Shown: in pieces, positions 13,671-61,597 of the stretch | How positions within the stretch are numbered: the first letter of the stretch is position 1 | Layout of the letters: every line of letters begins with the position of its first letter | Origin: Bacteroidota bacterium | GTDB taxonomy: Bacteria > Bacteroidota > Bacteroidia > Bacteroidales > WCHB1-69 | Reading direction: 5' to 3' | DNA: 64,000 bases | Assembly (NCBI GenBank): GCA_029570835.1 | Contig: JAKPTX010000105.1 | Location: forward strand, 1-64,000 | Position numbers and translations under genes: made by a program | Notes under the pieces: model-generated | The model's database searches: none | The model's input: only the letters and a program-made list of their open reading frames with translations | What the model was told of the DNA's origin: nothing

Positions 13671-13720
13671 AAACTTCCTTTTTCTTTTTTTTATTTGTTA
13701 ACGATTATTAATTTTAAACC

Positions 13721-13728
13721 CAAAAATA
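13721..13728 (-). promoter_or_regulatory. -7 element of the metallopeptidase-aroB operon
   Basis: Minus-strand TATTTTTG about 50 nt before the ATG at 13670, back-to-back with the M49 promoter. Confidence 0.5.
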
Positions 13729-13750
13729 TCTATTATTGCTATTTTTTATA

Positions 13751-13758
13751 TATTTTTG
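13751..13758 (+). promoter_or_regulatory. -7 element of the M49 lipoprotein gene
   Basis: TATTTTTG (TAnnTTTG), 47 nt before the ATG at 13806. It lies downstream of the alternative ATG at 13617, which supports the shorter protein. Confidence 0.55.
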
Positions 13759-13805
13759 ATGTTTCATTCATACAACGACAATTATTAACAAAAAAGTATA
13801 GCTTT

Positions 13806-15587: not shown

Positions 15588-18317
15588 CTATTGTTTAACA
15601 AACCGTTTGGATACCTGACCCTGTTCTGTGGTTAGGCGTATGATGTAAACACCTGATGCAAAGCTAGTTACATCTATTGATGTAATCTCTTCCTCAATGG
15701 GTAAAACGCGCATTAATCTACCATACATATCGTAAATATGGCACTCGGTTGCTCCCAGGTAATTTCTGTCTAATTTCAAGTCGATAACGGATTGGGTCGG
15801 ATTTGGATATAGTGTTACATATTGTGATAAATCATGCTCAGCAACACCCACTGTTGTATAAAAAACCAACTCTGTAAACAGACTTTCTCCAGAAGTACAA
15901 ATTGCCTTCACTCTGATCTGATACTGTGAATCACTTTGTAATCCGGTCATTGTAAATGAGGTAGTATGAGCTGTAGCAGTTGTCCAATTTGGAGAAGATA
16001 CCAATTTGTAGTCTATCTGCCATGAACTCTCAGATCCTCCGGCAGTCCAGGTAGCTAAAGCACTATTTGCGCTGATATTGGAAACAGCCAAATGAGTAGG
16101 TGGCAAACACCCTTCAATACCATCACTGGTGATTCTTATGTTATCAATCGCTGCGGGAGGAAGATTGATGTCAGAAGGATCGTTTTTCCAGCAGAAGTAA
16201 AGTCTCTTGGTGTAGCCGGAATAATCTGCAACCGGTAAAGTATAAGATGCTGTCTGCCATGTAGTCTGTTGTCCCATGGATGTATCCAACACTGTAACAC
16301 CGACTGGTACTGTGATTGTACCGGTCGTATTGGCAACGGGCAAAATAGGGGTACCAATATATACGTTAAGACAGTCGTATGAAGTTGTACCGTAAATTTC
16401 ACCGTTACATTTCCAGTCAAAAGTGAGCGTATAATCTGATATAGAAGGAGTAAAATAAATATCTCTAAACGCCCAAACTACAGCAGGAGTAGTGGAATAT
16501 GTGTTTGTAAGCCCATTATCATCAGAGATATATAATCCATGGCTACCGTCAGTCGTATTATTCACATCCTGTGCATTACCAATATACCAGTTGGCTCCGG
16601 AAGGATTATTTGCAAAAGCAAATCCTGAAGGTGTCTCAAAATCAATCACAAACGGTACATCCACAGGAGCTTGAGTAGTACAGAAAGTTCGTTTATTAGA
16701 CCAGTTACTTACCTCTCCGGGAGCACAAACAGATCTGACATAAAAATCATAATATGTTAATGGAGTTAATCCGGTAATTGTAGCAGGATTATTAGCGACT
16801 TGAATAACAGTACCTGTACCCTGTATAAATCCTGTCTCTCCATATTCTATTTCCCAAGAAGAAGGCATCCCGGACTCTATCCATGTTAATTCCAGTGAAT
16901 TATGTGCCGTGTTAATTAAAGTTAAATTTAACGGTTTTGGACAAGAAGGAATGTAGTCAACTACAACATCGTCTAACAAAAAACAGTAATATGATGAATT
17001 GGTAACATGCCTGAAAGCGATAAAGTTCCCTATTCCTGTCAGAGTTGTATTAGAAAACCTAACTTCATATTCTTGATAATTTTGAGTGATTGGAGTAATC
17101 ATTTGAACCAATTCAAAAGTTGATGGATCTAATGGATCTGACATGACACCCACATGAATCGTTCCTGAATTAGTCAAACTTTCAGCCCATAATTGAAATG
17201 TTACCATTAACGTATTGATATCAGCCCCCAATTGCTGCGTAATAACATAAGTTGGTTGAGAAGCGGAAGAGGATTGAAGCCTTAAACTTCCCGGTAAACT
17301 CATTGCATTTCCACTTACAATGGATGGATAAGGAATAGAAGTATATAATACCGGTCTAAACCAGCATGTTGGGAATATACCCGATCCTGTTCCATAAATA
17401 TCAAAATTTTCAGTATAAGGAAAAGTAGTAACTGCCTCACAAAAGGTAGTAAAGGAGATCGTACTCCATCCACTTGCATTGGTATCGCAAACCGATTTTA
17501 CTCTCACATCGTAGGTTGTCAGGGGATCTAAATTGGCAAGTGAGTACGCACCCAGATACAGAATCTGTTCAGCACTCCACACGGTTTCAATACTTTTCTT
17601 ATATTGTAATTTCCAGGAGATTCCGGTATTATGGGTATTCCAGATCAGATCAGCAGAGTTTGAAGTAATATTGACAACAGCTAAATTAGTGGGAGGATAA
17701 CAGAATCCTGCCGGAGGTGTAATTGTAAACTTGATATTGGCTCGTCTCCCTTCCTGCCCCGTTCCACTTGTGGAAGGAGCATTATCATTGGGAGGTGAAT
17801 TATCTGTACGTCTGTACCAGTGCGTAGCAGGAGCTTCATGGTTGTAGCAGTCAGTACGACAACTCCCGGTAGTATTACAACCCACACCCTCTATTAACAC
17901 CATTAAATTAGAAGTCCCTGAATAGGTAAATTGCGTATCGAACGCAAAAGTTTTCCACCCCGTCGGAGCGGAAGCCAAAGCATTATTTTCATACACCAAA
18001 GTAGCCCCCGTTTTGAGTGCATTCCAGGTGGTAGCAGAAAGTGCGGGCATGGTAGAAGCCGATGTTTCTTTTAAATAAATTTTAATTGTGGCATTGGTTC
18101 CGCTAGATGCCGATGCAATTTCAAAAGCAATGGCTGAAATCGGACCCCAAATACCTATTTCTTCCGCCTTATACAAATAGGCACTTCTATTCCACCCATA
18201 ATAACCCGGTAAAGGGTCAAAATAGGAGGTTGTTCCATTTCCAACCTGAATATCAACCTGTGCAAAAAGTTGAAATGAGGTCAGTATTGTAATGAACAAA
18301 AGTAATCCTTTTTTCAT
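15588..18317 (-). CDS. Modular FN3 surface protein with T9SS type A sorting domain (909 aa, smallest of five paralogues)
   Basis: Exported protein, probably attached to the cell surface or released by the type IX system. Order: signal peptide (1-20, ending FQLFAQ); N-domain of about 180 residues (21-203, from VGNGTTSYFDPLPGYYGW to RANIKFTIT); FN3; one choice-of-anchor-like module of the FRPV type (from FPYTENFDIYGTG); FN3; an H-type module (DVPFVIDFETPSGF ... PPAAIDNI); one FN3; T9SS tail from about 830 (LYPNPTQSVIDLKL ... GVYIIRLT ... RFVKQ). It lacks the second C-terminal FN3 and the InlB-like repeat found in its four large paralogues. No catalytic motif is visible. It is last in the minus-strand array, 182 bp downstream of the 3132-aa gene, with its own promoter-like TACATTTG. 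An adhesin or matrix role is inferred. Confidence 0.88.
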   Translation of the reverse strand: MKKGLLLFITILTSFQLFAQVDIQVGNGTTSYFDPLPGYYGWNRSAYLYKAEEIGIWGPISAIAFEIASASSGTNATIKIYLKETSASTMPALSATTWNALKTGATLVYENNALASAPTGWKTFAFDTQFTYSGTSNLMVLIEGVGCNTTGSCRTDCYNHEAPATHWYRRTDNSPPNDNAPSTSGTGQEGRRANIKFTITPPAGFCYPPTNLAVVNITSNSADLIWNTHNTGISWKLQYKKSIETVWSAEQILYLGAYSLANLDPLTTYDVRVKSVCDTNASGWSTISFTTFCEAVTTFPYTENFDIYGTGSGIFPTCWFRPVLYTSIPYPSIVSGNAMSLPGSLRLQSSSASQPTYVITQQLGADINTLMVTFQLWAESLTNSGTIHVGVMSDPLDPSTFELVQMITPITQNYQEYEVRFSNTTLTGIGNFIAFRHVTNSSYYCFLLDDVVVDYIPSCPKPLNLTLINTAHNSLELTWIESGMPSSWEIEYGETGFIQGTGTVIQVANNPATITGLTPLTYYDFYVRSVCAPGEVSNWSNKRTFCTTQAPVDVPFVIDFETPSGFAFANNPSGANWYIGNAQDVNNTTDGSHGLYISDDNGLTNTYSTTPAVVWAFRDIYFTPSISDYTLTFDWKCNGEIYGTTSYDCLNVYIGTPILPVANTTGTITVPVGVTVLDTSMGQQTTWQTASYTLPVADYSGYTKRLYFCWKNDPSDINLPPAAIDNIRITSDGIEGCLPPTHLAVSNISANSALATWTAGGSESSWQIDYKLVSSPNWTTATAHTTSFTMTGLQSDSQYQIRVKAICTSGESLFTELVFYTTVGVAEHDLSQYVTLYPNPTQSVIDLKLDRNYLGATECHIYDMYGRLMRVLPIEEEITSIDVTSFASGVYIIRLTTEQGQVSKRFVKQ

Positions 18318-18499: not shown

Positions 18500-21400
18500 T
18501 TATTTTTTAACAAAACGTTTAGATACCTGACCTTGTTCAGTAGTTAAGCGTACAAAGTATACACCTGCTGCAAAATCGCTCACATCAATTGTTGTGATCT
18601 CTTCTTCAATGGGCATAATACGCATTAACTTACCGTACATATCATAGATACGACACTCGGTAGTTCCCAAGTAATCTCTGTCTAACTTTAAGTCAATGAG
18701 AGATTGGGTTGGGTTAGGATAGAGTGTTACATATTGCGATAACTCATTCTCGGCAATACCTTCAGCGAAATCGACATGGATAGTGTGATTTGCTTGAATA
18801 TTCTCAAATGTATAGGATTCAGGAACAGGTACTTGTGGTACATTGTCCACCAGCACAACATCAATTCGATAACCTGCTTCCGGAGTGAAAGTGAAAGTTT
18901 GAGAACCTCCTTGATTCACTGTAACTGCGCCGGATGGAGTGATCGTTCCATGAGGACCTGCAGTAGCAGTAATAGTGTATGTTGCACTACCACCGGTTGT
19001 AAATGGAACAGGCTCAGTAAATGCACTCTCACCATTTGTACAGATTGCTTTCACTCTTACATGATAGTTGGAGTTACTTTGTAATCCTGTCATCGCAAAT
19101 GAGGTTGTAGTAGCTGTACCGGTTGTCCAGTTAGTAGAAGATACCAACTTGTAATCCACTTGCCATGAAGTCTCATTTCCTCCGGCTGTCCAGGTAGCTA
19201 ATGCAGACTGATCTGTTATATTAATAACCTGAAGATTAGTTGGAGTTACACAAGGTGTCGCAGAAGTAGTGAACGTAACAATAGAAGAATAAGCACTTAC
19301 TGTACCGTCAGCACAGTTCGCTTTAACCCTTGTCTCATACGTAGTAGAAGGTTGTAAACCGGTCATGGTATAAGTTGCAGTAGTTACATTTTGAACTGTC
19401 CAAGTGGTAGCTGCTGTAGTTTTATACTCAAACACCCATGAAGTTGCAGTACCGCCCCAAGTAGCTGTAGCACCGTTTGCACTGATATTGGAAATAGCCA
19501 GGTTAGTTGGTGGCAAGCAACCACTGATACCGGGACTGGTAATTTCAATATTATCAATCGCTGCAGGGGGTAGATTGACTACAGAACCATCATTCCTCCA
19601 GCAGTAGTAAAGTCTCATAGTTTGACCTGAGTAAGTAGCTGACGATAAGGTATAAGTTTGTGCATACCATGAAGTTTGCTGATTGAGATTAGTGCCTAGT
19701 GCAGTAGCACCGGTAGGTGCTGTAATCGTACCGGTAGTATTAGCAACAGGCATAACAGGAGCACCAATATACACATTAAAGTAATCATATGGATATGAAC
19801 CGCTACCCTCACCATAACACTTCCAGTCAAAGGTTAAAGTATAATCAGATGTAGAAGGAGTAAAATAGATATCTCTAAATGCCCAAACTACAGTTGAAGT
19901 TGTGGTATATGAATTTGTAACTCCGTTATCACTAGACACATACAATCCATTACTACCACCGGTCGTATTATTCACTCCTGTTGCACTTCCAGTGTACCAA
20001 CCTGTTCCTGTAGCATTATTTGCAAAAGTAAATCCTGATGCGGTTTCAAAGTCAATCATAAATGGCACATTAACGGGCTGTTGAGAGGTACAGTACGTTG
20101 CCTTGTTAGACCAGTAACTTTCATCTCCGGGACCACAAACGGATCTTACGTAGAAATCGTAACATGTAGATGAAGTCAATCCGGTAATTGAAGCAGGATT
20201 GGTAGTAACCGTAATAGTCGTTCCGTTACCTTGAGTGAAACCTGTTTCTCCATATTCTACTTCCCATGTAGTAGCCGTTCCATACTCAACCCAACCTAAA
20301 TCAAGAGAAGTTTGTGTTACGTTGGTAGAACTTAGATCAGCTGGTTTTGGACAAGAAGGAATAGGGAAAACTTCGACATTGTCCAACCAATAATAGTAAA
20401 CATCATTATTAGAAACGTGTCTGAATGCGATATAGTTTCCTGTTCCGCTTAGGGTTGTATTTGAAAACATTACTTCATACTCTTCGAAATTTGTATGGGT
20501 AGGAGTAATAGTGTGAACTAATTCAAAAGTTGTCAAATTAGTCGGATCAGACATTACACCCACCTCCATATTTCCTGAATAAGGCATATACTCAGCCTTC
20601 AATTGGAATGTAACCATTAATGTGTTAATATCAACATTAAATTGTGGTGTGATAGCATAAGTTGGTTGTGACGTAAGTGACTGGAATCTCAAACTTCCGG
20701 GTGAACTAACCGAATATGCACTTACAATAGAAGGATAAGGTGTTGAAGTATTCAGAACAGGTCTAAACCAGCATGGTGGGAATATACCGGATCCTGTACC
20801 ATAAACGTCAAAGTTTTCTGTCCAGGGGAATGTAGAAACAGCATCACATGCAGACCAGAAATGGTTCATATTTGACCATTCACTGGTACTTCCATCCAAA
20901 CATACTGAGCGAACATAAACCTCATAATGGGTATTAGCTGTTAATCCGGTAAGTTCTGCAAAAGTATCGTTAACCGCCACAGGAGTTTCATTATCAGGAT
21001 TAATTCCGGCAATACCATAAACATATTCATAACTTATCGCTGTAGGACTTGGAAGCCAGGATACAGTTGCTCCAGTCTGTGTAATACCGGAAAAACTAAT
21101 ATTGCTTGGTCGGATACAACTTGGAGCTTCATGCAATAGGAAATTATCCATATATATGGTGTTAGTACCATTAACACGAAGAGCTATATATTGTCCTGTA
21201 CCTGTATAAGTATGGAAGTTTACTTCAAACTCTTGGTATGTATTTGTTAATGTAGGTGTAGCTGTTCCCACCAAAGTAAAGGTATTGATATTCGTTGGAT
21301 CAGTCATCACTCCCACTTCTAATTGCTGTCCCATTGTAGCAGTTCTTGCCCAGAAGCGTACTTGTAGAGTAGTAATATCTAAAGTTTCACTTAGAGGAGG

Positions 21401-24400
21401 CAAAATCAATGTGGAATGATTAGTTCCATAAGAATAGAAATAAGCACTTTGTGGACTGGATATTGGATAACTGGTTGAGATATAAGGATAGCTTCCTTGT
21501 GTAGATAATCTGGTCCAACAAGTAGGTATAGAATTAGATCCTGATGGATAAGTATCAAAATTCTCGGTGAAAGGTAACAGTTCAATATCACCACAAAGTG
21601 TGGTAAATGAAATGAGTTTCCAGCTACTATAATCTCCTCCACCACAATCTGAACGCAATCTGAATTGGTAAGTTGTATTGGCGGCTAAATTGTCCAATAA
21701 ATAGGTAGTATTGGTAATTGTACCCAATGGAGTCCAGGTAGTTTCAGAATCTTCCTTGTACTCCCCTTCCCAGGAAGTTTCATACAAACCGGGAGCAATC
21801 ATCATCGTTGCTGAATTCACGTCAAGTTCGGTAAGGATAATATTAGGTCTAACACAGGTAACCTGATTACACTCACCCATAAATTTAATATTATTTCGAC
21901 TTGTAACAGCACTACTAGATGATGCAGAAGGAGATGTTAGAGAAATAGATCCACCATCTTGATAGAAATAGATCGCTTTAGTTCCTGTTGTTGTGTGCGT
22001 TCTAAACTTCGTTTCTGATGACGTATAAGAGCCTGTCATATCTCTAACTACTACAACTAAGTTGCTATCAGAATCATAAGCAAACGCACTGGGGAAGTTG
22101 ATCTCTAGCCAATAATCCGGATTGGTATTAACCCATGTAACATTACCTTGGTAAACCATCGTTAAGGATGAACCCGGAACAGCATCAGAAACCCCGGTAA
22201 AGGTTGTTTTATTGGTATGTCCCAAGTAAATTTCTATATTCCTGGTTAGAGAAGTATTGAAGAAATATTGGAAAGCCAATCCATAAATAGAGTCACCGAT
22301 ACCTGACAATTCTACAGCTTCATAAATTTGTTCTGTCAAACTATAATTATAGAAAGTATATGTTGGTAAATAGGCTCCATGTGTACTGGTTGTTGCATCT
22401 GGAGTTCCAACAATAATATCTCCTCCGTCAAAACAGGTTGTTCTAAATTGAACAGTCTCTCCGGTACCATCCTGTCCACTACATACCGGATATACGGTAA
22501 CAGAATAGTTAGTCAACTCATTCAAACCGGTCAATAAGAAATAATAGTTATTGGTTGTTTCATAAACCATTGCCTGAGTGGATAGATCTTCAATCTCAAT
22601 GGAGAAATAATCCGGAGTTCCGGCAGGAGCCCATGTCAGATAAGCTGAACTACCTGCAATATTAGAAACCTGAAGTTGAGTCAATGGTAAACAGTCAGGA
22701 GCCAGATCAAATGAAAAATCATCCAGAGTTAAATAATATGGTGACCCGGTAGCCTGGCAATAGACTCCAAAATAGTAAACTCCATCAGTTGAAGGAGTAA
22801 AGTAAGCCGTCATTTTTTGATATGCAGTATTATTCAATGTAGGTGCAGAAGCTATAGTACTAATTAAGGATGATGCACTTTGAGCTGAGTAAACTCCTGA
22901 TTCCAAAGTATTCCATCCACTGTAACCATCGGTAACGTACCAGAAAGAAAACTCATAAGAAACACCGGCTTGCAATTGGAATCCCGGAGTAAAGAAACGG
23001 TCATTACAGCTGTATCTAAAGTAAGCTGCTCCGGTTCCGGTACGAGCATTCCTATTATAGGAGTTATAATTTGTTATTTGAGTGTAAGTATAGTTTCCAA
23101 GACTTGTAGCATCCCAGCAAGCGGGTAAGGTATTGGCTACTGTCAAGTATTCAAAACTTTCTGTCCAGGGAAGTGTTTCAAAAGGCAAACATTCAGTAGT
23201 AGCAATAATAGTTTGTGGATGTGTACTGGTCTCAGTTCCACAATCTGCCTTAACACGAACCATATAGTCTGTTGCAGCATCCAGATTCGTAATAGTGTGA
23301 GGATTAGTATAAGCAAGATCTTCTTCCCAGGTATTATCCGTTACTTTTTTGTATTGAACAATCCAACTTGTAGCAGTACCATTTTCTGTCCAACCTATTT
23401 CTAATTCATCTGTAGCTGCCGAAACCACATGTACCTGAGTAGGTCTCGCACAATCAGAGTAGAGATCGATATCCAAATTATCAAGATACCCATAAGTATA
23501 AGTAGAACTATAACGAGCCATAAATGCTATATATTGACCGGTTCCTGTGTAGTTAGCAAATGAAACCGACTTCTCATACCATGTTGAAGTAGAGGGATTA
23601 GTAACAAAAGCCACCTGTTCAAAAGTAGAAGCATTGGTAGGATCTGTCATCACACCTATAAAGAGTGTATCAGTACTATTAGAAGTTCTATATCTAAAGA
23701 AGGCTTCCAAAGTGTTAATAGGAATAGATACGTCAAACTCTGGTGTAGCTGCAATATTATAGGTTCCAGATGTTCCCGCATAAAAATAAAGTGATCCGGG
23801 AGGTGAATAATTAGTACTGTTTACATAAGGCCTGTTGGCGTAAGTGGTTGTTCTTGTCCAGCAGGGTGGAAATACTGAAGTACCTGTGCCATAAGTGTCA
23901 AAATAATCACTCCATGGTAATGTAGTAATTGACCCACAAGCAGTCATAACATTCAACACCGCAGAATACTCACTCTCTTCACCACCACAATCTGACTTAA
24001 TACGAATCATATATGTAGTTGAGGGATCCAGATTCTGAATTGTATAAGAAGGAGTGGTGTAAACTAACTCCTCAGTCCAGGTATAATCTGACGCTTTTTT
24101 GTATTCAACAGTCCACGCGGTAGCATCACCATTTTCTTGCCACTCGATTTCTATTTCATTTTCATCCACAGAAACCGCTGCTAACATTGTAGGTTTAGGA
24201 CAAGTAGGAGCAAGATCTATAGTTACATTATCAAGATAACCGTAAACATAGGTAGAACCGTAGCGTGCCATAAATGCAATATATTGTCCGGTTCCTTGAT
24301 AGTTGGTAAAGTAAACCTCTTTATCATACCATGTTCCTGTAGAACTATTTGTAACGTAAGCTACCTGTTGGAAAGTAGCAGCATTGGAAGGATCTGTCAT

Positions 24401-27400
24401 CACGCCTATAAAGAGGGAGTCTGTACTATAAGAGGCATAATACTTAAAGGTTGCATAAAGCGTATTGACAGGAATAGACTCATCAAACTCGGGTGTAGCT
24501 GCAATATTATAGGATCCGGAGCTACCCGCGTAAAAATAGAGTGATCCGGGAGATGAAAAGTTAGTGGTAGATATATTAGGTCTGTCAGTAACAGTTGTTG
24601 TTCTTGTCCAGCAAGTTGGGAAAATTGTGGTACCTGTACCATAAGTATCAAAATTATCGACAAAAGGCAATTGATCAATAGCGCCACATTCTGTAGTAAA
24701 TGAAATCATTTTCCAACTACTATAATCCCCACCGCCACAATCTGAACGCAATCTAAACTGGTAAGTCGTATTGGCAGTTAAATTATCCAACATGTAATTG
24801 TCAACGGTAATCATACCCAATGAAGTCCAGGAGGTTTCAGTATCTTCCTTATACTCCCCTTCCCAGGAACTTTCATACATACCGGGAACAATGGTCATGG
24901 TTGCTGAAGTTACATCAACATTGGTGAGGATGATATTAGGTTTAACACAGGTAACCTGAAGACAATCACCCATAAATTTGATATTGTTTCGGTTGGTAGT
25001 AGAACTACTGCTAGATGCATATGGAGATGTGATAGGAATAGCTCCACCACTATCTTGATAGAAGTAGATTGCTTTGGTTCCTGATGTTGAATGCGTTCTA
25101 AACTTCTCTGAAGATGAAGTATAAGAACCTGTTATATCTCTAACTACAACCACCAGATTACTATCAGAATCATAAGCAAATGGAGTGGTAAAATTAAACT
25201 CCATCCAATAATCCATATTGGTATTAGTCCATGTAACATTACCTTGGTAAACCATAGTTAAGGATGACCCCGGAACAGCATCAGAAACTCCACTAAAGGT
25301 TGATTTATTAGTATGCCCCAAATAGATTTCTATATTCCTGGTTATATTAGTAGCGAAAAAATATTGGAAGGCCAATCCATAAATAGTGTCTCCAACACCT
25401 GACAAATCAGCAGCATCATAAATCTGTTCTGTCAATGAATAATTATAGTATGTGTATGTCGGCAAATATTGTCCACTGGAACTGGTAGTTGCATTGGGGG
25501 TTCCAACAATAATTTCTCCTCCTTCAAAACAAACTGTGCTGAATTGAATGGTCTCTCCATTAGCTGCCTGTCCACTACATACAGGATATACAGTAACGGA
25601 ATAGTCAGTCATTTCATTCAACCCGGTCAATATGTAGTCATAATTATTGGTTGTTAAATTAGTTACTGCCTGTGTGGATAGATCCTCAACCTCAATAGCA
25701 AAATAATCGGGAGTTCCTGCAGGAGCCCATGTTAGATAAGCAGAGCTTCCCGTAATATTAGAAACCTGAAGTTGTGTTAGCGGTAAGCAATCCGGAGCCA
25801 AATCTACTGAAAAATCATCAATAGTTATAAAGTAAGGCGATGTACTGGATTGACAATAGACTCCAAAATAATACACTCCATCAGCTGTGGGAGTAAAGTA
25901 GCCGGTCAACTGTTGATAGGTAGTATTGTTCAATGTAATTGCAGAGGCTATAGTATGCAGCAAAGCAGATGGAGTTTGAGATGAATAGACTCCCGACTCT
26001 AAAGTTTGCCATCCGCTTAATCCATCGGTAATATACCAGAAGGAGAACTCATAAGAAACACCGGCTTGCAGTTGAATACCCGGGGTAAAGAAACGGTCAT
26101 TACAGCCGTATCTGAAGTAAGCAGCCCCTAATCCGGTATGAGCAAATCTATTGTAAGAAGTATAGTTCATATTTTGCGTATTGGTATAACCGCTAGTGCC
26201 CCCAAAGTTCGTAGCTGCCCAACAAGGAGGTAAGTAATTGGCTGCCGGTAGATTTTCGAAACTTTCCATCCATGGAATGGTTTCAACAGGCAAACAATCG
26301 GTAGTCGCAACAATAGTTTGTGGATGTGAACTCAACACACCCCCACAATCTGCCTTAACACGAACCCAATAATGTGTTCCCGGCTCCAAATTCGCAAGTG
26401 TATGCGGATTAGTATATGCCAAATCTTGACTCCAAACAGTTTCCGTTACTTTTCTATATTCAACAACCCAATTCGTAGCTGTACCATTTTCAGTCCAACC
26501 TATTTCCAACTCATCTGTTGTGGCTGAAACCACTTGTACTTGAGTAGGTCTTACACAAGTAGAATAGAGATCAATTTCTAAATTATCAAGATAAGCGTAC
26601 ATATAAGTAGAACTATAGTGGACCTTAAAAGCTATATATTGTCCTGTTCCTGTGTAATTATTAAAGGAAACCTCTTTTTCATACCATGTACCGGTAGTTG
26701 GATTGGTAACAAAAGCTATCTGTTCAAAAGTTGTAGCATCGGTAGGATCCGTCATTACACCAACAAAGAGTGTATCGGTAGCGTAAACAGTTCTATATTT
26801 GAATATTGCTTGCAAGGTATTAATAGGAATAGATACGTCAAACTCAGGTGTAGCTGCAATATTGTAAGTACCGGATGTACCTGCATAAAAATAAAGCGAT
26901 CCGGGAGCTGAGTAGTGAGTACCACTCACATAAGGTCTGTCTGTATAAGTTGTATTTCTTGTCCAACATGGAGGGAAAACCGAGGTTCCTGTGCCATAAG
27001 TGTCAAAATAATCACTCCATGGTATAGTGGAAATGGGTACACAGTCGGTCATTGCATATAATATTGGTGAATAATCACTCACTTCGGTACCACAATTGGA
27101 TTGAACCCTAATCATATATACAGTTTGAGGATCCAGGTTAGAAATTGTGTAGGGATTAATAGAAGCGGTTTCCACTATCCAGTTCGTATCGGTTAATGTT
27201 CTGTGCTCAACGATCCAACTCGTAGCAGTACCATTCTCTTGCCATCCTATCTCTAATTGATCTGTTCCGCTCGAAACCACATTTAAATTTGTTGGTTTAG
27301 GACAAGTAGGGATGTAGTCCACCTCAACATCATCCAACCAGTAATAGTAGATTGAATTATTGGTAACATGTTTAAAGGCAATATGATTCCCTGTTCCGGT

Positions 27401-27898
27401 TAAAGTTGTATTTGAAAAAAACACTTCATACTCAATAAAACTTGTGCTGGTTGGAGTAATAATCTGAACCAATTCAAATGTTGATGTATCGTTAGGATCA
27501 GACATTACACCTACATGCATAGATCCTGAGTAGGGCATATATTCAGCCTTCAATTGAAATGTAACCATTAAGGAATGGATATCCGCATCCATTTGTGGTG
27601 TAATAGCATAAGTTGGTTCTGTTGCGGAAGGTGATTCAAATCTCAAACTCGCAGGAGGACTAACTGAATATGCAGTTACTACAGAAGGATAAGAATTGTG
27701 TATCACCGGTCTGTACCAGTCAGTAGGAAATGTTCCTGAACTGTAGGTATCAAAATTCTCAGTCCAGGGAAACGTAGATACGGTCACGGAATTGGTAGCC
27801 GAAAGATCGGTTATTCCGTGTCCAATAGGAACTTCAGCTTTTGCTAAAAACTGAAATGACATCAAAATTGACATCAAAATTAGTAAAAATCTTTTCAT
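18500..27898 (-). CDS. Giant modular FN3 surface protein with T9SS type A sorting domain (3132 aa)
   Basis: Largest of the five paralogues, estimated at about 330 kDa. After the signal peptide (MKRFLLILMSILMSFQFLAKA) it enters the first module directly and lacks the N-domain of its relatives. By module type the order is A-B-C-D-E-B'-C'-D'-F-G-H, each of A to G followed by an FN3 domain, then two FN3, one divergent InlB-type repeat (ITATAGPHGTITPSG) and the T9SS tail. Approximate module starts on DNA: A 27770, B 27025, C 26280, D 25530, E 24670, B' 23920, C' 23170, D' 22435, F 21575, G 20830, H 20090. B-C-D-E and B'-C'-D'-F are offset by about 3.1 kb. Typical motifs are LPWSDYFDTYGTG, FPPCWTR and GTGQYIAF. 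FN3 domains carry conserved cysteines. No catalytic residues are visible; an adhesin or matrix role is inferred. Confidence 0.9.
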   Translation of the reverse strand: MKRFLLILMSILMSFQFLAKAEVPIGHGITDLSATNSVTVSTFPWTENFDTYSSGTFPTDWYRPVIHNSYPSVVTAYSVSPPASLRFESPSATEPTYAITPQMDADIHSLMVTFQLKAEYMPYSGSMHVGVMSDPNDTSTFELVQIITPTSTSFIEYEVFFSNTTLTGTGNHIAFKHVTNNSIYYYWLDDVEVDYIPTCPKPTNLNVVSSGTDQLEIGWQENGTATSWIVEHRTLTDTNWIVETASINPYTISNLDPQTVYMIRVQSNCGTEVSDYSPILYAMTDCVPISTIPWSDYFDTYGTGTSVFPPCWTRNTTYTDRPYVSGTHYSAPGSLYFYAGTSGTYNIAATPEFDVSIPINTLQAIFKYRTVYATDTLFVGVMTDPTDATTFEQIAFVTNPTTGTWYEKEVSFNNYTGTGQYIAFKVHYSSTYMYAYLDNLEIDLYSTCVRPTQVQVVSATTDELEIGWTENGTATNWVVEYRKVTETVWSQDLAYTNPHTLANLEPGTHYWVRVKADCGGVLSSHPQTIVATTDCLPVETIPWMESFENLPAANYLPPCWAATNFGGTSGYTNTQNMNYTSYNRFAHTGLGAAYFRYGCNDRFFTPGIQLQAGVSYEFSFWYITDGLSGWQTLESGVYSSQTPSALLHTIASAITLNNTTYQQLTGYFTPTADGVYYFGVYCQSSTSPYFITIDDFSVDLAPDCLPLTQLQVSNITGSSAYLTWAPAGTPDYFAIEVEDLSTQAVTNLTTNNYDYILTGLNEMTDYSVTVYPVCSGQAANGETIQFSTVCFEGGEIIVGTPNATTSSSGQYLPTYTYYNYSLTEQIYDAADLSGVGDTIYGLAFQYFFATNITRNIEIYLGHTNKSTFSGVSDAVPGSSLTMVYQGNVTWTNTNMDYWMEFNFTTPFAYDSDSNLVVVVRDITGSYTSSSEKFRTHSTSGTKAIYFYQDSGGAIPITSPYASSSSSTTNRNNIKFMGDCLQVTCVKPNIILTNVDVTSATMTIVPGMYESSWEGEYKEDTETSWTSLGMITVDNYMLDNLTANTTYQFRLRSDCGGGDYSSWKMISFTTECGAIDQLPFVDNFDTYGTGTTIFPTCWTRTTTVTDRPNISTTNFSSPGSLYFYAGSSGSYNIAATPEFDESIPVNTLYATFKYYASYSTDSLFIGVMTDPSNAATFQQVAYVTNSSTGTWYDKEVYFTNYQGTGQYIAFMARYGSTYVYGYLDNVTIDLAPTCPKPTMLAAVSVDENEIEIEWQENGDATAWTVEYKKASDYTWTEELVYTTPSYTIQNLDPSTTYMIRIKSDCGGEESEYSAVLNVMTACGSITTLPWSDYFDTYGTGTSVFPPCWTRTTTYANRPYVNSTNYSPPGSLYFYAGTSGTYNIAATPEFDVSIPINTLEAFFRYRTSNSTDTLFIGVMTDPTNASTFEQVAFVTNPSTSTWYEKSVSFANYTGTGQYIAFMARYSSTYTYGYLDNLDIDLYSDCARPTQVHVVSAATDELEIGWTENGTATSWIVQYKKVTDNTWEEDLAYTNPHTITNLDAATDYMVRVKADCGTETSTHPQTIIATTECLPFETLPWTESFEYLTVANTLPACWDATSLGNYTYTQITNYNSYNRNARTGTGAAYFRYSCNDRFFTPGFQLQAGVSYEFSFWYVTDGYSGWNTLESGVYSAQSASSLISTIASAPTLNNTAYQKMTAYFTPSTDGVYYFGVYCQATGSPYYLTLDDFSFDLAPDCLPLTQLQVSNIAGSSAYLTWAPAGTPDYFSIEIEDLSTQAMVYETTNNYYFLLTGLNELTNYSVTVYPVCSGQDGTGETVQFRTTCFDGGDIIVGTPDATTSTHGAYLPTYTFYNYSLTEQIYEAVELSGIGDSIYGLAFQYFFNTSLTRNIEIYLGHTNKTTFTGVSDAVPGSSLTMVYQGNVTWVNTNPDYWLEINFPSAFAYDSDSNLVVVVRDMTGSYTSSETKFRTHTTTGTKAIYFYQDGGSISLTSPSASSSSAVTSRNNIKFMGECNQVTCVRPNIILTELDVNSATMMIAPGLYETSWEGEYKEDSETTWTPLGTITNTTYLLDNLAANTTYQFRLRSDCGGGDYSSWKLISFTTLCGDIELLPFTENFDTYPSGSNSIPTCWTRLSTQGSYPYISTSYPISSPQSAYFYSYGTNHSTLILPPLSETLDITTLQVRFWARTATMGQQLEVGVMTDPTNINTFTLVGTATPTLTNTYQEFEVNFHTYTGTGQYIALRVNGTNTIYMDNFLLHEAPSCIRPSNISFSGITQTGATVSWLPSPTAISYEYVYGIAGINPDNETPVAVNDTFAELTGLTANTHYEVYVRSVCLDGSTSEWSNMNHFWSACDAVSTFPWTENFDVYGTGSGIFPPCWFRPVLNTSTPYPSIVSAYSVSSPGSLRFQSLTSQPTYAITPQFNVDINTLMVTFQLKAEYMPYSGNMEVGVMSDPTNLTTFELVHTITPTHTNFEEYEVMFSNTTLSGTGNYIAFRHVSNNDVYYYWLDNVEVFPIPSCPKPADLSSTNVTQTSLDLGWVEYGTATTWEVEYGETGFTQGNGTTITVTTNPASITGLTSSTCYDFYVRSVCGPGDESYWSNKATYCTSQQPVNVPFMIDFETASGFTFANNATGTGWYTGSATGVNNTTGGSNGLYVSSDNGVTNSYTTTSTVVWAFRDIYFTPSTSDYTLTFDWKCYGEGSGSYPYDYFNVYIGAPVMPVANTTGTITAPTGATALGTNLNQQTSWYAQTYTLSSATYSGQTMRLYYCWRNDGSVVNLPPAAIDNIEITSPGISGCLPPTNLAISNISANGATATWGGTATSWVFEYKTTAATTWTVQNVTTATYTMTGLQPSTTYETRVKANCADGTVSAYSSIVTFTTSATPCVTPTNLQVINITDQSALATWTAGGNETSWQVDYKLVSSTNWTTGTATTTSFAMTGLQSNSNYHVRVKAICTNGESAFTEPVPFTTGGSATYTITATAGPHGTITPSGAVTVNQGGSQTFTFTPEAGYRIDVVLVDNVPQVPVPESYTFENIQANHTIHVDFAEGIAENELSQYVTLYPNPTQSLIDLKLDRDYLGTTECRIYDMYGKLMRIMPIEEEITTIDVSDFAAGVYFVRLTTEQGQVSKRFVKK

Positions 27899-28655: not shown

Positions 28656-31600
28656 TTATTTTTTTACAAAGCGTTTAGATACCTGACCTTGTTCAGTAGT
28701 TAAGCGTACAAAGTAAACACCTGCTGCGAAATCGCTCACATCAATTGTTGTGATCTCTTCCTCAATGGGCATAATACGCATTAACTTACCATACATATCA
28801 TAGATACGACACTCAGTTGTTCCCAAGTAATCTCTGTCTAACTTCAAGTCAATGAGAGATTGGGTTGGGTTAGGATAGAGTGTTACATATTGCGATAATT
28901 CATTCTCGGCAATACCTTCAGCAAAATCGACGTGGATAGTGTGATTTGCTTGAATATTCTCAAATGTATAGGATTCAGGAACAGGTACTTGTGGCGCACC
29001 ATCTACCAACACAACATCAATTCGATAGCCTGCTTCCGGAGTGAAAGTGAAGGTTTGAGATCCACCCTCATTAACAGTAACATCACCGGATGGAGTGATT
29101 GTTCCATGAGGACCTGCTGTAGCAGTAATAGTGTATGTAGTAGTACCGGCAGTTGTGAAAGGAACCGGTTCGGTAAACGCACTCTCTTCGTCTGCACAGA
29201 TCGCTTTTACTCTCACATGATAGTTTGAATTACTTTGTAATCCGGTCATTGTAAATGAGGTTGTATTAGCCGTAGCTGTTGTCCAGTTAGTAGCCGATAC
29301 CAACTTGTAATCCACTTGCCATGAAGTCTCAGTTCCTCCGGCTGTCCAGGTAGCTACTGCAGACTGATCTGTGATATTAGTCACCTGTAAGTTGGTTGGA
29401 GTTACACAAGGTGTAGCCTCAGTGGTAAAGGTAACTATAGCAGTATAATCGCTCTCATCTCCGGCATCACAAATCGCTTTCACCCTTGTTTCATATTGAG
29501 TAGAAGGTTGTAATCCGGTCATGGTATAAGTCGCAGTAGTTACATTTTGAGTTGTCCAGGTAGTAGCTGCTACTGTTTTATATTCAAATACCCATGAAGT
29601 TTCAGTTCCTCCGGCTGTCCAGGTAGCTGTAGCACCGTCTGAGGTAATATTGGAAACAGCCAGGTTAGTTGGTGCCAGGCAATCCACAATACCGGTACTG
29701 GTAATTTCGATATTATCAACTGCTACGGGAGGTTGAGTTCCACCGGAACCATCATTTCTCCAGCAGAAATAGAGTCTCTTAGTTTGACCTGAGTAATCAG
29801 CTGAGGATAAGGTAAACGATGTATCTTGCCATGTGAGCTGTTTATTCATCTTTATTCCCAATTCTACAGCACCGGCAGGTACCGGAATTGTACTGCTGGT
29901 AGCAGAAACAGGCATAACAGGATCACCAATATAGACATTCATGTAGTCATAAGCGGTTGTAGAGAGTTTTTCACCATCACACTTCCAGTCAAAGGTTAAA
30001 GTATAATCAGCTGTCGAAGGAGCAAAATAGACATCTCTATACGCCCAAACTACAGTTGCAGAGGTAATGGTATATGCATTTGTAGCTCCATTATCATTAG
30101 AAATATACAATCCATGGCTACCACCGGTTGTATTATTTACACTATCTGCACTACCGATGTACCAATTGTTTCCGGTAGGATTGTTTGCGAAGGTAAATCC
30201 CGATGGGGTTTCAAAATCAATCATGAACGGTACGTCAACAGGAATTTGATTGGTACAGAAAGAGAGTTTATCAGACCAATCACTTTCATCTCCCGGAGCA
30301 CAAACAGCTCTCACATAGATGTCGTAACAAGTTGATGCGGTTAATCCGGTGATTGCAGCGGGATTAGTAGTAACCGGAAGAATAGTTCCGGTACCTTGAG
30401 TAAAGCCCAATGCACCATACTCAATTTCCCAAGAGGTAGATGTACCATTCTCAAGCCAACTCAAATCCACTGAAGTTTGTGTTACGTTGGTAACAGATAA
30501 ACCTGATGGTCTTGGACAGGATGGGATAGCATCTATAACCACATTATCGATATAACCATACGTAGCAGAAGTTCCTCCATATCGAGCCAAAAACGCAATA
30601 TATTTTCCGTTTCCTGTATAGTTATTAAAGAAAACCTCTTTCGGGAACCAGGTTGAGATAGAGCTATTTGTGATAGCTGCCACTTGTTCAAAAGTAGAAG
30701 CATCTGTAGGATCTGTCATCACACCAACAAACAGAGTATCAGTAGTATAGGAGCTTCTATACATAAAACTAAGTAGGAAAGTATTGACAGAAAGAGATGC
30801 GTCAAACTCAGGTGTAGCTGCGATATTATAGGTGCCGGCAGGAGCATAGAAATAGAGTGCTCCTGGAGCTGAATAATAAGTAGAAGCATGTATGTAAGGT
30901 CTATTACTTTGAGTTGTAGTTCTTGTCCAGCAAACAGGGAACACTGTGGTACCTGTACCATAAGAGTCAAAACTATCGGACCAAGGTAAAGAGCTAATCA
31001 CACCACACGCTGTACGGAAGAAGGTCATAGCTGTCCATTCACTATTGCTTCCATCCGAACAAACAGAACGAACATAAACTTCATATACTGTATTAGCGGT
31101 TAGTCCGGTAAGTTCTACAAAAGTATCGTTAACTGCCTGAGGAGTCTCATTTTCAGGGTCAAATCCGGTCAAACCGTAAACAATTTCATAACTCATTGCT
31201 GTAGTAGTCGAACTCCAGGATACAGTTGCTCCATTCTGTGTAATACCGGAAAAAGTAATGTTAGCCGGTCTGACACAGTTTGGTATTTCTCTTAACATTA
31301 AATCATCCATATATACAGTGCTGGCACCATTTGTACGAATCGCTATATATCGTCCTGTTCCCACATAAGTATCGAAGTTAATTTCAAACTCCTGGTGGGT
31401 ATTGGTCAGTGAAGGTGCAGCTGTTCCCACCAGAGTAAAAGTATTAATATCCGTTGGATCGGTCATCACTCCTACTTCTAATTGATATCCTTGTGTTGCA
31501 ACTCTTGCCCAGAACAGCAATTGTAGCGTAGTAACGTCTATATTTTCACTTACAGGAGGTAGGATCAATGTAGAATGATTGGTTCCTGTGGAATAAAAAT

Positions 31601-34600
31601 AAACACTATTGGGGGTAGATATTGAATTGGCAGCAGAAATGTAAGGATAGTCCCCTTGTGTCGATAGCCTGGTCCAACAATCAGGTATAGAGCTGGATCC
31701 CGAAGGATAAGTATCAAAATTTTCAACAAAAGGTAATTGTTCAAGATCACCACAAAGCGTAGTAAATAAAATGGTTTTCCAGTTACTGTAATCTCCTCCG
31801 CCACAATCTGTACGTAATCTCAATTGATAAGTTGTATTGGCAGTTAAATTATCCAAAATATAGTTAGTATTGGAAATTGTACCCAAAGTAGTCCAATCAG
31901 TCTCTGATACTTCCCTAAACTCTCCTTCCCAAGATGTTTCATTCATACCGGGGACAATAATCATACTTGCTGAAGTTACATCAACATCAGTAAGAATAAT
32001 ATTAGGTTGAGCACAGGTAAACGGATTACATCCACCCATAAATTTAATATTATTTCGATTTATAACTACACCATCATATGATGCAATTGGAGCTGCAATA
32101 TTTATAGGCGAGCCATCTTGATAAAAATAGATCGCTTTGGTACCTAAGGTTGCATGTGTTCTAAACTTCGATGAAGATGAGGTATAAGAACCTGACATAT
32201 CTCTTACTACAACAACTAAATTACTGTCAGAATCATAAGCAAATGGGTTTGTGAAATTAAACTCTACCCAATAGTCTTCATTAGTATTAACCCATGCGGC
32301 AGGACCCTGGTAAACCATGGTTAAAGATGAAGCCGGAACAAAATCGGTAACTCCGGTAAAGGTTGTTTTTTCCGTATGTCCCAAATAAATTTCTATATCT
32401 CTGGTTATTGCAGTATTAAAGAAATATTGGAAAGCCAATCCATAAATAGAGTCACCTAGATCTGTCAATTCAGCAGCATCAAAAATCTGCTCTGTTAATG
32501 AATAATTATAGTATGTATAGGTTGGTAAATATTGTCCATTTGTATTGGTTGTTGCATCGGGAGTTCCAACAATAATATCTCCTCCTTCAAAACAAGTTGT
32601 TCTGAATTGAATAGTCTGCCCCACACCTTCAATACCACTACACATTGGCTGTACTGAAACTGAATAGTCTGTTAACTCATTCAACCCGGTTAAAATAAAA
32701 TAGGGATCATTACTGGTTTCATTTACCGTTGTATTAGTAGATAGATCCTCTATTTCAATAGAATAATAATCAGGAGTTCCTGCTGTAGTCCAGGTTAAAT
32801 AGGCAGAGCTGGCCGCAATATCAGAAACCTGAAGCTGAGTAACAGGTAAACATTCAGGAGCCAGACCAAATGAAAAATCATCAAGAGTTATGTACCATGG
32901 TGAAGTAGACGCTTGACAATAAAGTCCAAAATAATAAACTCCATCCGCTTCAGGAGTGAAGAAAGCACTAAGTTCCTGATATGTAGTATTGGATAATGTA
33001 GGTGCACTAATTACAGTTTGCAATAAAGCAGACGCATTTTGAGCTGAATAAACTCCTGCTTCCAAAGTGTTCCATCCGGTAAGACCATCAGTAACATACC
33101 AGAAAGAGAACTCATAAGCAACACCGGCTTGCAATTGGAACCCGGGAGTAAAGAAATGATCATCACTACCATATCTAAAGTAGGCAGCTGCCGTTCCGGT
33201 ACGAGCATTTCTATTATAGGAGTTATAATCTACAATTTGCGTATTGGTATAAGTTCCAAATCTGGTAGCTGCCCAACAATCAGGTAAAGTTGAGGCTGCT
33301 GTTAAGTCTTCAAAGCCCTCAGTCCATGGGAAGGTTTCAATAGGCAGACACTCTGTTGTAAAAGACAAAATCACTGTTGGATCTGAAAGATCAGCACCAC
33401 AATCAGTTCTTAAGTAAAACTCATAGGTTTGATTCGGAGTTAATCCTTCCAAGGTATAAGGATAGGTATTAATATAGACTGAATCCCAATCAGTTGAGGA
33501 TTGTGGTTTATAATAGAGATACCAAGCGGATGAGGCTGAACTCGCAGGTAGAAAATCGATCTCCGCACTATAGGGGGTAACGTCAATCACTGAAACACTG
33601 GTAGGTCTTGCACAATCACCAATAGGTTCAATCAAAACATCATCAATATTTAAGTAATATCCTCCCGTTGTATTTCTTACAAAAGCGATTTGATATTCTC
33701 CAACATATTGACTCAAACTCAATTCATATAGTGTCCATTCAGTAGCAGGAATAACAGTATTAGGTATCAAGTCAACAAAATTGGTTGTATCCGATTCTGT
33801 ACTCACAGCACCCAATGAAGCATCAAAAATCTTAACCGAAAGGATATCTGTATAAGTAGAATATCCTTTAGCCCAGAAGCTAAACTGTTCATTTCCGGTT
33901 AATGAAAGTACCGGAGTAATAAACCAGTCCCCTTGAAGTCCGGCAGAAGTAGAACCACTATACATTTGCAATGCACCGGTTCCGGTACGAACGTAGCTGG
34001 AAGAGGTTGTTTTACGCCATACTCCTCCGGATTGTGTTCCTCCATTAATATTTGTCCAGCACCATGGGTGTGTACCTGTATTCAATCCATAAGCTACAAA
34101 CCAGGCCCCTTCAAATCCTTCACTCCACGGGAATGTATTAATTGACACACAAGGCATACCCACATTGATTGTACTTGAAGGGTATGTAGTTTCACCTGTC
34201 AAACAGTTTGCAGATATCATTATTTTGTACACCTGATTAGGTTCCAGACCTGTTATAGTATAAGGGTGATTGTGTGCTACCACCGTTTGCCACTCTAAAG
34301 CATCTATCGGTTTATAGATCACATTCCAGGAAAGGACATTGGCGTCATCCGCTCCATCCCAATCTATTGTTATGCTATTTTCTGTCAGACCTGCGCCAAT
34401 ACTTGTCAGGTCGGTTGGAATATTACAACTCGGTGTAAGTCCAACCCAGAAGTCATCTATATACATCCCGTTAGCATTTACCTCCCCATGAATTCTAAAA
34501 GCAATATATTTAGCTGTACCGGTATAGCTTGCAAAATCTACTGAAATCAACTGCCAAGTAGAAGCAGCTGTTGGGGAAACAGTGTCTATGGGTACATAAG

Positions 34601-36530: not shown

Positions 36531-36588
36531 AACTGTATTATTTTTTATTGAAATATAGTTTCTCCTGTATCGTATACACTTCAAACGG

Positions 36589-37003: not shown

Positions 37004-40000
37004 TTATTTTTTAACAAAACGTTTAGATACCTGACCTTGTTCTGTTGTCAAGCGTACAAAGTAAACACCTGTTGCGAAATCGCTCACATCAATTGTTGTG
37101 ATCTCTTCTTCAATTGGCATAATGCGCATTAACTTGCCATACATATCATAAATACGACACTCAGTTGTTCCCAAGTAATCTCTATCAAGCTTCAAGTCAA
37201 TGAGAGATTGGGTTGGGTTAGGATAGAGTGTTACATATTGTGACAACTCATTCTCAGCAATACCTTCAGCGAAATCGACGTGGATAGTGTGATTTGCTTG
37301 AATATTCTCAAATGTATAAGATTCAGGAACAGGTACTTGTGGCACATTGTCCACTAACACAACATCAATTCGATAGCCTGCTTCCGGAGTGAAAGTGAAG
37401 GTTTGAGATCCACCCTCATTAACAGTAACATCACCGGATGGAGTGATCGTTCCGTGAGGACCTGCTGTAGCAGTAATAGTGTATGTAGTAGTACCGGCAG
37501 TTGTAAATGGAACCGGTTCAGTAAATGCACTCTCACCTGTTGTACAGATTGCCTTCACTCTCACATGATAGTTGGAGTTACTTTGTAATCCGGTCATCGC
37601 AAATGAGGTTGTAGTAGCTGTACCGGTTGTCCAGTTAGATGAAGATACCAACTTATAATCCACTTGCCATGAGGTTTCAGTTCCTCCGGCAGTCCAGGTT
37701 GCCAATGCAGACTGGTCTGTAATATTAGTTACCTGTAAGTTAGTTGGAGTAACACAAGGTGTAGCCGAAGTTGTGAAAGAAACAACAGAAGAATAATCAC
37801 TCACTTCTCCATCATCACAGATAGCTTTAACCCTTGTCTCGTACGCAGTAGAAGGTTGTAAACCGGTCATGGTGTAAGTTGCAGTAGTTACTGCTTGAGT
37901 TGTCCAGGTAGTAGCTGCTGCTGTTTTATACTCAAACACCCATGAAGCTGCAGTGCCGCCCCAGGTAGCTGTAGCACCGGTTGCACTGATATTGGAAATA
38001 GCCAGGTTAGTTGGTGGTAAGCAAACTTCAGGACCGGTAATTTCAATATTATCAATTGCTGCAGGTGGTTGGTTAGATACAGAACTATCATTTCTCCAAC
38101 CAAAATAGAGTCTCATTGTTTGACCGGAATAAGTAGTTGCCGATAAAGTATAAGTTTCACTCTGCCATGTAGTCTGCTGGTTGAGTATGGTACCCAACGT
38201 AGTTGCACCGGCAGGTGCTATAATAGTACTGCTGGTACTCGCAACAGGCATAACAGGTACCCCAATATACACATTAAAGTAATCAAATGAACTTTCACCA
38301 CGGCACTTCCAGTCAAAGGTTAAAGTATAATCATCTGTAGAAGGAGTGAAATAGATATCTCTAAACGCCCAAACTACACATGATGTGTTAGAATATGCAT
38401 TGGTAACTCCATTATCGTTAGAGATGTACAATCCATTGCTGCCACCGGTTGTATTATTCACATCCGCTGCATTACCTACGTGCCAATTATTTCCGGAAGT
38501 GTTATTTGCAAAAGTAAATCCTGATGCAGTTTCAAAGTCAATCGTAAACGGTACATTAACGGGAGTTTGAGAAGTACAGAATGTTGCCATGTTAGACCAA
38601 TCACTTTCATCTCCCGGAGCACAAACAGATCTTACATAAAAATCGTAACATGTTGATTCTGTTAATCCGGTAATTGAAACAGGATTAGTTGCAACAGCAA
38701 GGATAGTACCGGTACCTTGAGTGAAACCTGTCGCACCATATTCTACTTCCCAAGCGGTAGCCGTACCATACTCAACCCAACCTAAATCCAACGAAGTTTG
38801 TGTTACGTTAGAGGATGTTAAGTCTGCCGGTCTTGGACAAGAAGGAATGAGGTCAACCACAACATCATCCAACCAATAATAGTAGATTGAAGAGTTGGTA
38901 ACATGTTTGAAAGCGATATAGTTTCCTGTTCCTGTTAAAGTTGTATTTGAAAACATCACTTCATGCTCTTCAAAACTTGTACCGGTTGGAGTAATAATTT
39001 GCACTAATTCAAAAGTAGTTAGATCATAAGGATTGGACATCACACCCACGTGCATAACTCCTGAATTGGTTACGCTTTCAGCTTTCAATTGGAATGTAAC
39101 CATTAACGTATTGATATCAGCATCCAATTGTGGCGTAATAGCGTAAGTTGGTACTGTTGCTGAAGCAGATTGGAATCTTAAGCTTGCAGGAGAACTAACT
39201 GAATATGCAGTTACTATAGAAGGATAAGGTGTTGAAGTATTGAGAACCGGTCTAAACCAACAAGTTGGGAATGTTCCTGTTGTTGTACCATATGTATCAA
39301 AATTCTCAGTGTAGGGGAACGAATCAACAGCAAGACAAGAAGTAGTAACAGTCAATGGTACTGAATAATCGCTATCTTCAGTTCCACAATCTGCTTTAAC
39401 TCGAATTTCATAATTTGTTGACGCATTCAAATTCATAATTGTATGAGGATTGGCATAAGCATTCTCCACTTGCCAAGTAGTTGCCGTTGCTTCTTTATAC
39501 TCAACAACCCAACTTGTAGCAGTACCATTTTCTGTCCATCCCACTTCTACCTGATCACTTGCAATAGAAACTACTGTTAAATCTGTAGGTCTGGGACAAT
39601 CAGGCATGAATTCAACCACAACATCATCCAACCAATAGTAATAAGCTGAAGAATTAGTAACATGTTTGAAAGCAATATAATTACCTGTTCCGGTTAAAGT
39701 TGTATTTGAGAACATCACTTCATACTCTTGGAAACTTGTATTGGTTGGAGTGATAATTTGAACCAATTCAAAAGTAGTTAGATCGTAAGGATTGGACATC
39801 ACACCCACATGCATAACCCCTGAGCTACTTGCACTCTCAGCTCTCAATTGGAATGTAATCATAAGCGTATTGATATCAGCATCCATTTGTGGTGTAATGG
39901 CATAAGTGGGTTGTGAAGCAGAAGCTGACTGGAATCTCAAGCTTCCCGGAGGAGTATTATTTACAGTTACAATAGAAGGATATGGTGTTGAAGTATTCAG

Positions 40001-54743: not shown

Positions 54744-54764
54744 TGTATTAAAATAGTGTCAACT

Positions 54765-55730: not shown

Positions 55731-55767
55731 AACTTTTTTGTATATAATGATTTAATTTTATTTTATT

Positions 55768-56859: not shown

Positions 56860-56903
56860 AGTATATATCTATTAATAATTAATTTATGATAAAGTTCAAT
56901 CTG

Positions 56904-56911
56904 CAAAGATA
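56904..56911 (-). promoter_or_regulatory. -7 element of gcvT
   Basis: Minus-strand TATCTTTG followed by CAGATT, about 45 nt before the gcvT ATG, in the 67-nt gap after purN. Confidence 0.55.
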
Positions 56912-56926
56912 ATAAAAAAAATGAAA

Positions 56927-58538: not shown

Positions 58539-58559
58539 TATTTTTTTATTTTGAATTAT

Positions 58560-59615: not shown

Positions 59616-59635
59616 AGCGGCACTTTTTTAGTGCG

Positions 59636-59643
59636 CAAAGATA
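59636..59643 (-). promoter_or_regulatory. Promoter of the queA-purM-purN unit
   Basis: Minus-strand TATCTTTG, with a TTG about 20 nt further upstream as a possible -33 element. The -7 lies 20 nt before the queA ATG. Confidence 0.6.
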
Positions 59644-59753
59644 CAACTTTTTTTAAGAAAAATCAACCCCTAAATCACGATTTTTATTTTGAAAAGCGGA
59701 ATTAAACAATATTTTAACTCTCCATTCGTTATTGGGAATAAATTTTTGACTGT

Positions 59754-61595: not shown

Positions 61596-61597
61596 TA

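Follow-up and report, generated by a model that had tools for sequence, protein, structure and literature searches.

How does a giant surface-protein gene come to carry a repeat of several unlike modules, and what is left of the event that made it? The question is raised by a 3132-amino acid (aa) gene, here called w1 (18500..27898, minus strand), in the genome of an uncultured member of the Bacteroidales (assembly GCA_029570835.1). The stretch that we analyzed, hereafter the window, comprises the first 64,000 nucleotides of contig JAKPTX010000105.1, which is 99,805 bases long; the assembly totals 2.92 Mb in 277 contigs. Translation and profile scans give w1 the order A-B-C-D-E-B'-C'-D'-F-G-H, followed by two FN3 domains, a repeat domain, and a type IX secretion system (T9SS) type A sorting domain. 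Neighboring paralogs are named w2 to w5, the proteins P0001 to P0005, and two genes of a sister species in the same genus r1 and r3. We find that module E is a chimera of two module classes, and our trees place the duplication of B-C-D before the split of the two species. Unequal homologous exchange, with E as its junction, is the origin that we favor, with modest confidence.

A three-module block is repeated within w1

The modules lie on the minus strand at 27044..27790 (A), 26297..27043 (B, a jelly-roll plus FN3), 25532..26296 (C), 24689..25531 (D, a different beta-rich domain that has no curated family match of its own, plus FN3), 23939..24688 (E), 23192..23938 (B'), 22436..23191 (C'), 21596..22435 (D'), and 20849..21595 (F). 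A first-pass annotation had matched B, C, D, and E with B', C', D', and F at an offset of about 3.1 kb. This geometry held: all eight module starts recurred within a few bases (B 27025, C 26278, D 25531, B' 23920, C' 23173, D' 22435, and F 21577; E, which the start-search pattern missed and which was found separately, starts at residue 1077, i.e., 24670), and the module boundaries of each pair are 3093-3105 bases apart. DNA identity is 79.4% for B/B', 77.2% for C/C', and 82.1% for D/D', with the anticipated sharp fall at E/F, to 45.8%. Long identical residue runs are present as described (31 residues in B/B', 17 in C/C', and 22 in D/D') but are not special to the pairs, since comparably long runs link modules to other genes (C'/w4.C, 26 residues; B'/w3 module 5, 25 residues).

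The expectation that B, C, and D should be nearer to B', C', and D' than to modules of other genes failed in part for B' and C' and held for D'. B' is nearer to w3 module 5 (82.3% DNA identity) than to B, C' is tied between w4.C (77.6%) and C, with w2.C at 76.2%, and D' is slightly nearer to D than to w2.D (80.7%) or w4.D (75.1%). Read from the first half, C is nearer to C' than to w2.C (72.9%) or w4.C (75.0%), and D is nearer to D' than to w2.D (78.6%) or w4.D (75.0%). Overall, the three pairs do not stand clearly apart from the copies that other genes carry.

Taken by itself, the order of classes says little for a block repeat: when the ten class labels, which were assigned by the analyst, were shuffled 20000 times, three in a row matched at a single lag in 1003 cases. 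Chance and mis-assembly are nevertheless unlikely, because C belongs to a different domain class from D and the order in the sister genome is the same except at slot B'. That the repeat is an artifact of a fragmented metagenome bin is suggested by the number of contigs, yet the copies are about 20% different and nearly the same order stands in another species' assembly; we regard this explanation as extremely improbable. A search for block repeats (offset of at least two, two consecutive pairs above 60% of residues) covered 26 reading frames with at least five domains (two of the frames repeat the same contig). Only w1 and w3 were flagged; the ortholog of w1 in the sister species was not, with its D' cut and its slot B' different. 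The three-module repeat suggested for w3 (modules 1-3 versus 4-6, 67-77% of residues) was not borne out by per-domain neighbors, and we do not claim it.

The duplication is older than a species split

In the sister species (G001), the ortholog r1 is ordered A-B-C-D-E-X-C'-D' up to the contig end, X being the different module in slot B'. The locus is syntenic: nine of nine window open reading frames (ORFs) from 52696 to 62377 match in the sister species at 75-98% of residues, the first in three pieces. The remaining 14 of the 23 window ORFs compared had no match; three sister stretches were searched, and one of these breaks off within the array.

Trees pair the modules across species by position. 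Support is 100/99 for C with C (the jelly-roll of C grouping with that of r1.C) and 95/94 for D' with D'. It reaches 100/100 for E with E and 100/95 for B with B (83.5% DNA identity with r1.B), in a tree that carries a long-branch warning. Some pairings are weak singly (C' with C', 82/84; D with D, 75/82; C FN3, 61/58; C' FN3, 74/76); whole C-D cassettes pair by position at 94/100 and 99/98. The constraint that the two copies within a genome be sisters was rejected for the C jelly-roll (p = 0.0005), D (p = 0.0025), the C FN3 (p = 0.037), the D FN3 (p = 0.029), and the whole C-D cassette (p = 8e-11). Since modules pair with their positional counterparts and within-genome sisterhood is rejected, the B-C-D duplication is placed before the split from the same-genus species. 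Synonymous divergence (dS) of C/C' (0.97) and B/B' (0.75) exceeds the 0.46-0.71 of five flanking orthologs, whereas D/D' (0.53) falls within that range and alone would not show a pre-split age. A recent duplication private to this genome is rejected by the orthologous pairing. The internal tandem duplication proposed in the first-pass annotation best accounts for C-D and probably also for B, though it is neither recent nor private to the species. A third genome of the genus (G002, 65% complete) yielded no comparable C-D cassette, its best match being 61% over part.

Module E has an F-type head on a B-type body

E and F had been said to occupy the same slot as different module types, one perhaps replaced after duplication. 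That reading needs a correction, because E keeps an F-type head. We aligned E with three F-type and eleven B-type modules; the C, D, H, and m3 classes were excluded from this seam test and from the conservation and head tests below, and the seam test also excluded the second (FRP-type) jelly-roll class and the m2 class. At sites informative between the F and B class consensus, E is F-like to the left of FDTY|GTG (10:2) and B-like to its right (12:154), which places the seam at 24638..24649 (minus strand). The sister-species module r1.E (87.0% DNA identity) has the same arrangement, 10:0 and then 15:153 at the same seam. In both species, none of 9999 shuffles gave a seam as strong (chi-square 59.8 in this genome and 64.8 in the sister). 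The strongest break among the eleven B-type controls had a chi-square of 22.6, and their largest F-like head was 2:1 sites. Hence, E is chimeric in both species, and it was already so in their common ancestor. A module that joins the head of F to the body of B is better read as a junction, or as the result of partial conversion, than as a wholesale replacement.

The F class also comes after D in the 2642-aa w2 and the 2446-aa w4, and the F-like head of E is therefore probably a remnant of an old D-F boundary. If a B-type pair stood at the start of the second half, the FN3 domains of E and B' should resemble those of such a pair. The FN3 of E does group with its counterparts in w3 module 4 and in one module of a sister gene (96/94), and the FN3 of B' groups with those of w3 module 5 and both B modules (96/98). 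For the FN3 of B', neither a clade with B (p = 0.21) nor one with w3 module 5 (p = 0.49) is rejected. The predicted structure of the E jelly-roll (pLDDT 97.5) has the seam in the loop that follows the first strand, and hybrid modules would therefore be expected to fold.

The joint lies where homology is longest

No other 15-base window of the jelly-roll part is as conserved as the one that holds the switch in E (modal frequency 0.913, against a median of 0.675; 31 modules). The FDTY stretch has no excess of synonymous conservation: the nine joint columns score 0.173 versus 0.148 in 121 others, a value reached by 3284 of 10000 random sets. A dedicated recombination site at the joint is unsupported, given this ordinary synonymous conservation. 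With at most one mismatch, the joint word occurs 12 times in the genome, always inside w1, w2, or w3, which is what homologous modules would give. The joint coincides with the longest homology and is not a proven special site.

Among 24 modules, for which 272 of 276 pairs were kept and four ortholog pairs dropped, the similarity of a head goes more closely with the FN3 that precedes it (partial r = 0.42; 0 of 2000) than with the body of the same module (0.20; 10 of 2000). A second head-body seam occurs in module 6 of the sister gene r3 (12:0 and then 23:337), where the break at residues 9-11 lies a few residues before that of E (14-17). One could imagine the array as a standing diversification system, in which a cassette of jelly-roll body, FN3, and next head is exchanged by cuts in or just before FDTYGT to give foldable products, E and r3 module 6 being independent ones; we offer this as a speculation that is probably wrong.

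Unequal exchange as the proposed origin of the repeat

We lean toward the reading in which the B-C-D/B'-C'-D' repeat arose by unequal homologous exchange between misaligned copies, with E as the junction. The partners would have been two copies of w1, or w1 and a neighboring paralog. The break in one partner would have fallen within the head of F, the module after D, and that in the other at the corresponding FDTYGT stretch of a module of B type; their joined product would be E, and the exchange would have lengthened the array by four modules. This would have happened before the split from the sister species, and later exchanges would have altered single modules. We infer both that E is the crossover itself and which partner gave the second half.

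A rather unlikely route, which refines the reading of the first-pass annotation, is that B-C-D-F was duplicated first and that the first F was then converted by a B-type module from the FDTY stretch onward. It would account for the F-type head retained by E, and tract swaps do occur here, as in the switch inside the FN3 of sister module 6 and in the ends of w1, w2, and w3 (see below). However, it needs two events, with a tract that replaces the rest of F together with its FN3. Nor would a tract confined to E predict that E and B' resemble an adjacent pair in w3, though the FN3 of B' groups with B too.

Duplication within w1 must also be weighed against derivation from two genes, and here the rooted tree barely separates the alternatives. 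The grouping of C-D with C'-D' has support of 74/71 in the DNA tree (alternatives p = 0.29 and 0.06) and 73/97 in the protein tree (p = 0.38 and 0.15), and the root is weak because at least two of three outgroup cassettes start with a jelly-roll outside the C class. Perhaps, then, there was no block duplication: the second C-D would have recombined in from a w2- or w4-like gene, and the two halves would never have been mutual copies in w1. C' is as near to w4.C as to C, B' is nearer to w3 module 5, and a grouping of C'-D' with the cassettes of other genes is not rejected (the p of 0.29 above). Set against this, the best rooted DNA tree keeps C-D with C'-D', and an unrooted tree separates the C FN3 domains, from either copy and either species, from those of w2 and w4 (99/98). 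We judge this alternative unlikely.

Several further observations weigh against unequal exchange at E as told here. First, if the unit is [A/E]-B-C-D, i.e., four modules ending with D, then module A occupies the slot that matches E and should match the body of E. A and E share only 53.6% DNA identity, which calls for either another change or another partner. Second, five of the eleven B-type controls gave p < 0.05 in the break test, with weaker breaks elsewhere, and these modules are therefore mosaic in general. Third, single parents give a less clean head for E (9:4 with w4.F and w3 module 4; 10:4 with w2.F and w3 module 4), and such tests place the seam anywhere from about two codons earlier. 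Fourth, nothing marks the FDTY stretch as a special DNA site. Finally, only two species are informative.

Probable later exchanges between modules and genes

Module 6 (slot B') differs between the species, with a switch inside it. The sister module belongs to a different jelly-roll class and changes to B'-like sequence within its FN3, at module residue 172 or 180 depending on the parent chosen. To the left of the break, 158-168 of 197-202 sites are not those of B'; to the right, B' is matched at 36 of 59, 50 of 68, and 93 of 110 sites. A B'-like FN3 sits with a B-type jelly-roll in the other four cases seen (w1.B, w1.B', w3 module 5, and r1.B), and the sister's slot is therefore more likely the changed one.

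Similar gene ends suggest exchange between genes as well. In the last seven 60-base windows, w1, w2, and w3 are mutually 88-98% identical. Their identity to r3 is 70-92% over the first five of these windows and 90-97% over the last two; the evidence lies in only part of the stretch, and r3 need not be the ortholog of any one of them. The gene r3, which lies upstream of the w1 ortholog, has modules 2-3 that resemble w2 and last modules that resemble w3. Gene number between the mutarotase gene and the w1 ortholog also differs, with w4, w3, and w2 here (28656-52595) and one mosaic gene, r3, in the sister (L041:4334-10828).

The array of paralogs

The five minus-strand genes are built alike: each has a hydrophobic start, then jelly-roll modules in alternation with FN3, and at its end a T9SS sorting tail, which was identified by profile scan in P0001, P0002, P0003, and P0005 and by eye in P0004. 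w2 (28656..36584; 2642 aa) and w4 (45255..52595; 2446 aa) each carry one C-D-F cassette. w3 (37004..44707; 2567 aa) lacks the C-D cassette, and its modules 4-5 resemble E-B'; w5 (15588..18317; 909 aa) is short. The listed TTG start of w2 is probably 18 codons too early (36530-36584), as an ATG there begins a signal-like stretch.

In the w1 protein (P0001), the hydrophobic N terminus is signal-peptide-like by eye, Pfam fn3 matches 10 stretches, and the C terminus (18503..18724, minus strand), at the similar gene end described above, qualifies as a type A sorting domain (TIGR04183, 54.6 bits versus a cut-off of 23; Por_Secre_tail, 47 versus 27). The genome encodes the T9SS translocon SprA (TIGR04189, 2441.4 bits versus a cut-off of 200); the search was for the SprA family, and none of 14 control genomes matched.

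Domain families and likely function

The NCBIfam model NF038128 (choice_anch_J) matches P0001 at 139.1 bits in eight stretches (cut-off 30) and P0002 at 147.2 bits. The E domain alone scores 22.1 bits, below the cut-off, and P0003 has no match at 0.01. Structure alignments were built for the jelly-rolls from 56 members of a non-redundant set of 207 (262 found), and for the D domains from 50 of 66 (68 found, some overlapping, in the loci scanned). At 0.01, NF038128 matches 47 of the 56 aligned jelly-rolls. Pfam Cleaved_Adhesin (PF07675) matches three of the 56 and has no match at 0.01 in P0001, P0002, or P0005. A Foldseek search with the jelly-roll ranked the adhesin domains K1, K2, and K3 of gingipain 1-7 (TMq 0.55-0.71; E 2e-6 to 1e-5), ahead of a porphyran-binding module, and a profile search returned only two matches, both gingipain chains (E = 0.0016 and 0.0017).

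D is a separate class of beta-rich domain (174 aa modeled, pLDDT 93.5), found on the minus strand at 24968-25492, 21875-22396, 32034-32555, and 48618-49142. Among its 50 aligned members, no convincing NCBIfam family emerged (one weak match to an amino acid permease model), and Pfam gave DUF4082 in three and three other families in one each. No solved fold is close (best E = 3e-4, TMq 0.38). A Pfam scan found no peptidase domain in the w1 protein. The w1 product is likely a surface adhesin of jelly-roll and FN3 domains that would be exported by type IX secretion and, to judge from its domains, would bind glycans or proteins.

Comparison with known systems

Choice-of-anchor J proteins are close relatives by profile for P0001 and P0002, which lie far above the NF038128 cut-off, and differ in that the E domain alone and P0003 do not reach it. 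The HagA and gingipain adhesin regions of Porphyromonas gingivalis share with w1 a T9SS tail and repeated jelly-roll adhesin domains, and domain rearrangement and recombination have been published for such genes (PMC5266723). w1 differs in alternating FN3 with jelly-rolls, in repeating a D domain that has no curated family of its own, and in yielding no peptidase domain in the Pfam scan. Near-identical repeats are expected of a HagA-like adhesin, and the w1 copies are 77-82% identical, i.e., about 20% diverged.

Two giant genes in the same genome have a Peptidase_C25 domain (G000:C256:5916-6974 and 13229-14287; 199.4 and 196.2 bits versus 23), and their frames also hold modules and FN3 domains related to those of the window genes, an echo of the pairing of protease-adhesin with adhesin-only proteins in P. 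gingivalis. In another uncultured member of the Bacteroidales (L090), a gene has two jelly-roll modules that are 97% identical in residues, likely by recent duplication. Among the literature matches listed, we found no work on this gene family in this genus.

PMC5266723 attributes surface-protein variation in P. gingivalis to domain rearrangements and allelic exchange, and describes adhesin-domain variants and a high level of recombination for Kgp. The process in w1 is of the same kind. Its pattern is a block duplication with the joint preserved, followed by single-module swaps and similar gene ends, and it offers a relatively dated, base-level view of growth and reshuffling in the giant secreted adhesins of uncultured Bacteroidales. 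A process known from cultured Porphyromonas thereby extends to a large, little-studied protein family. To the P. gingivalis precedent, w1 adds a joint that has been preserved, that can be dated against the split of two species, and that can be located in the predicted fold.

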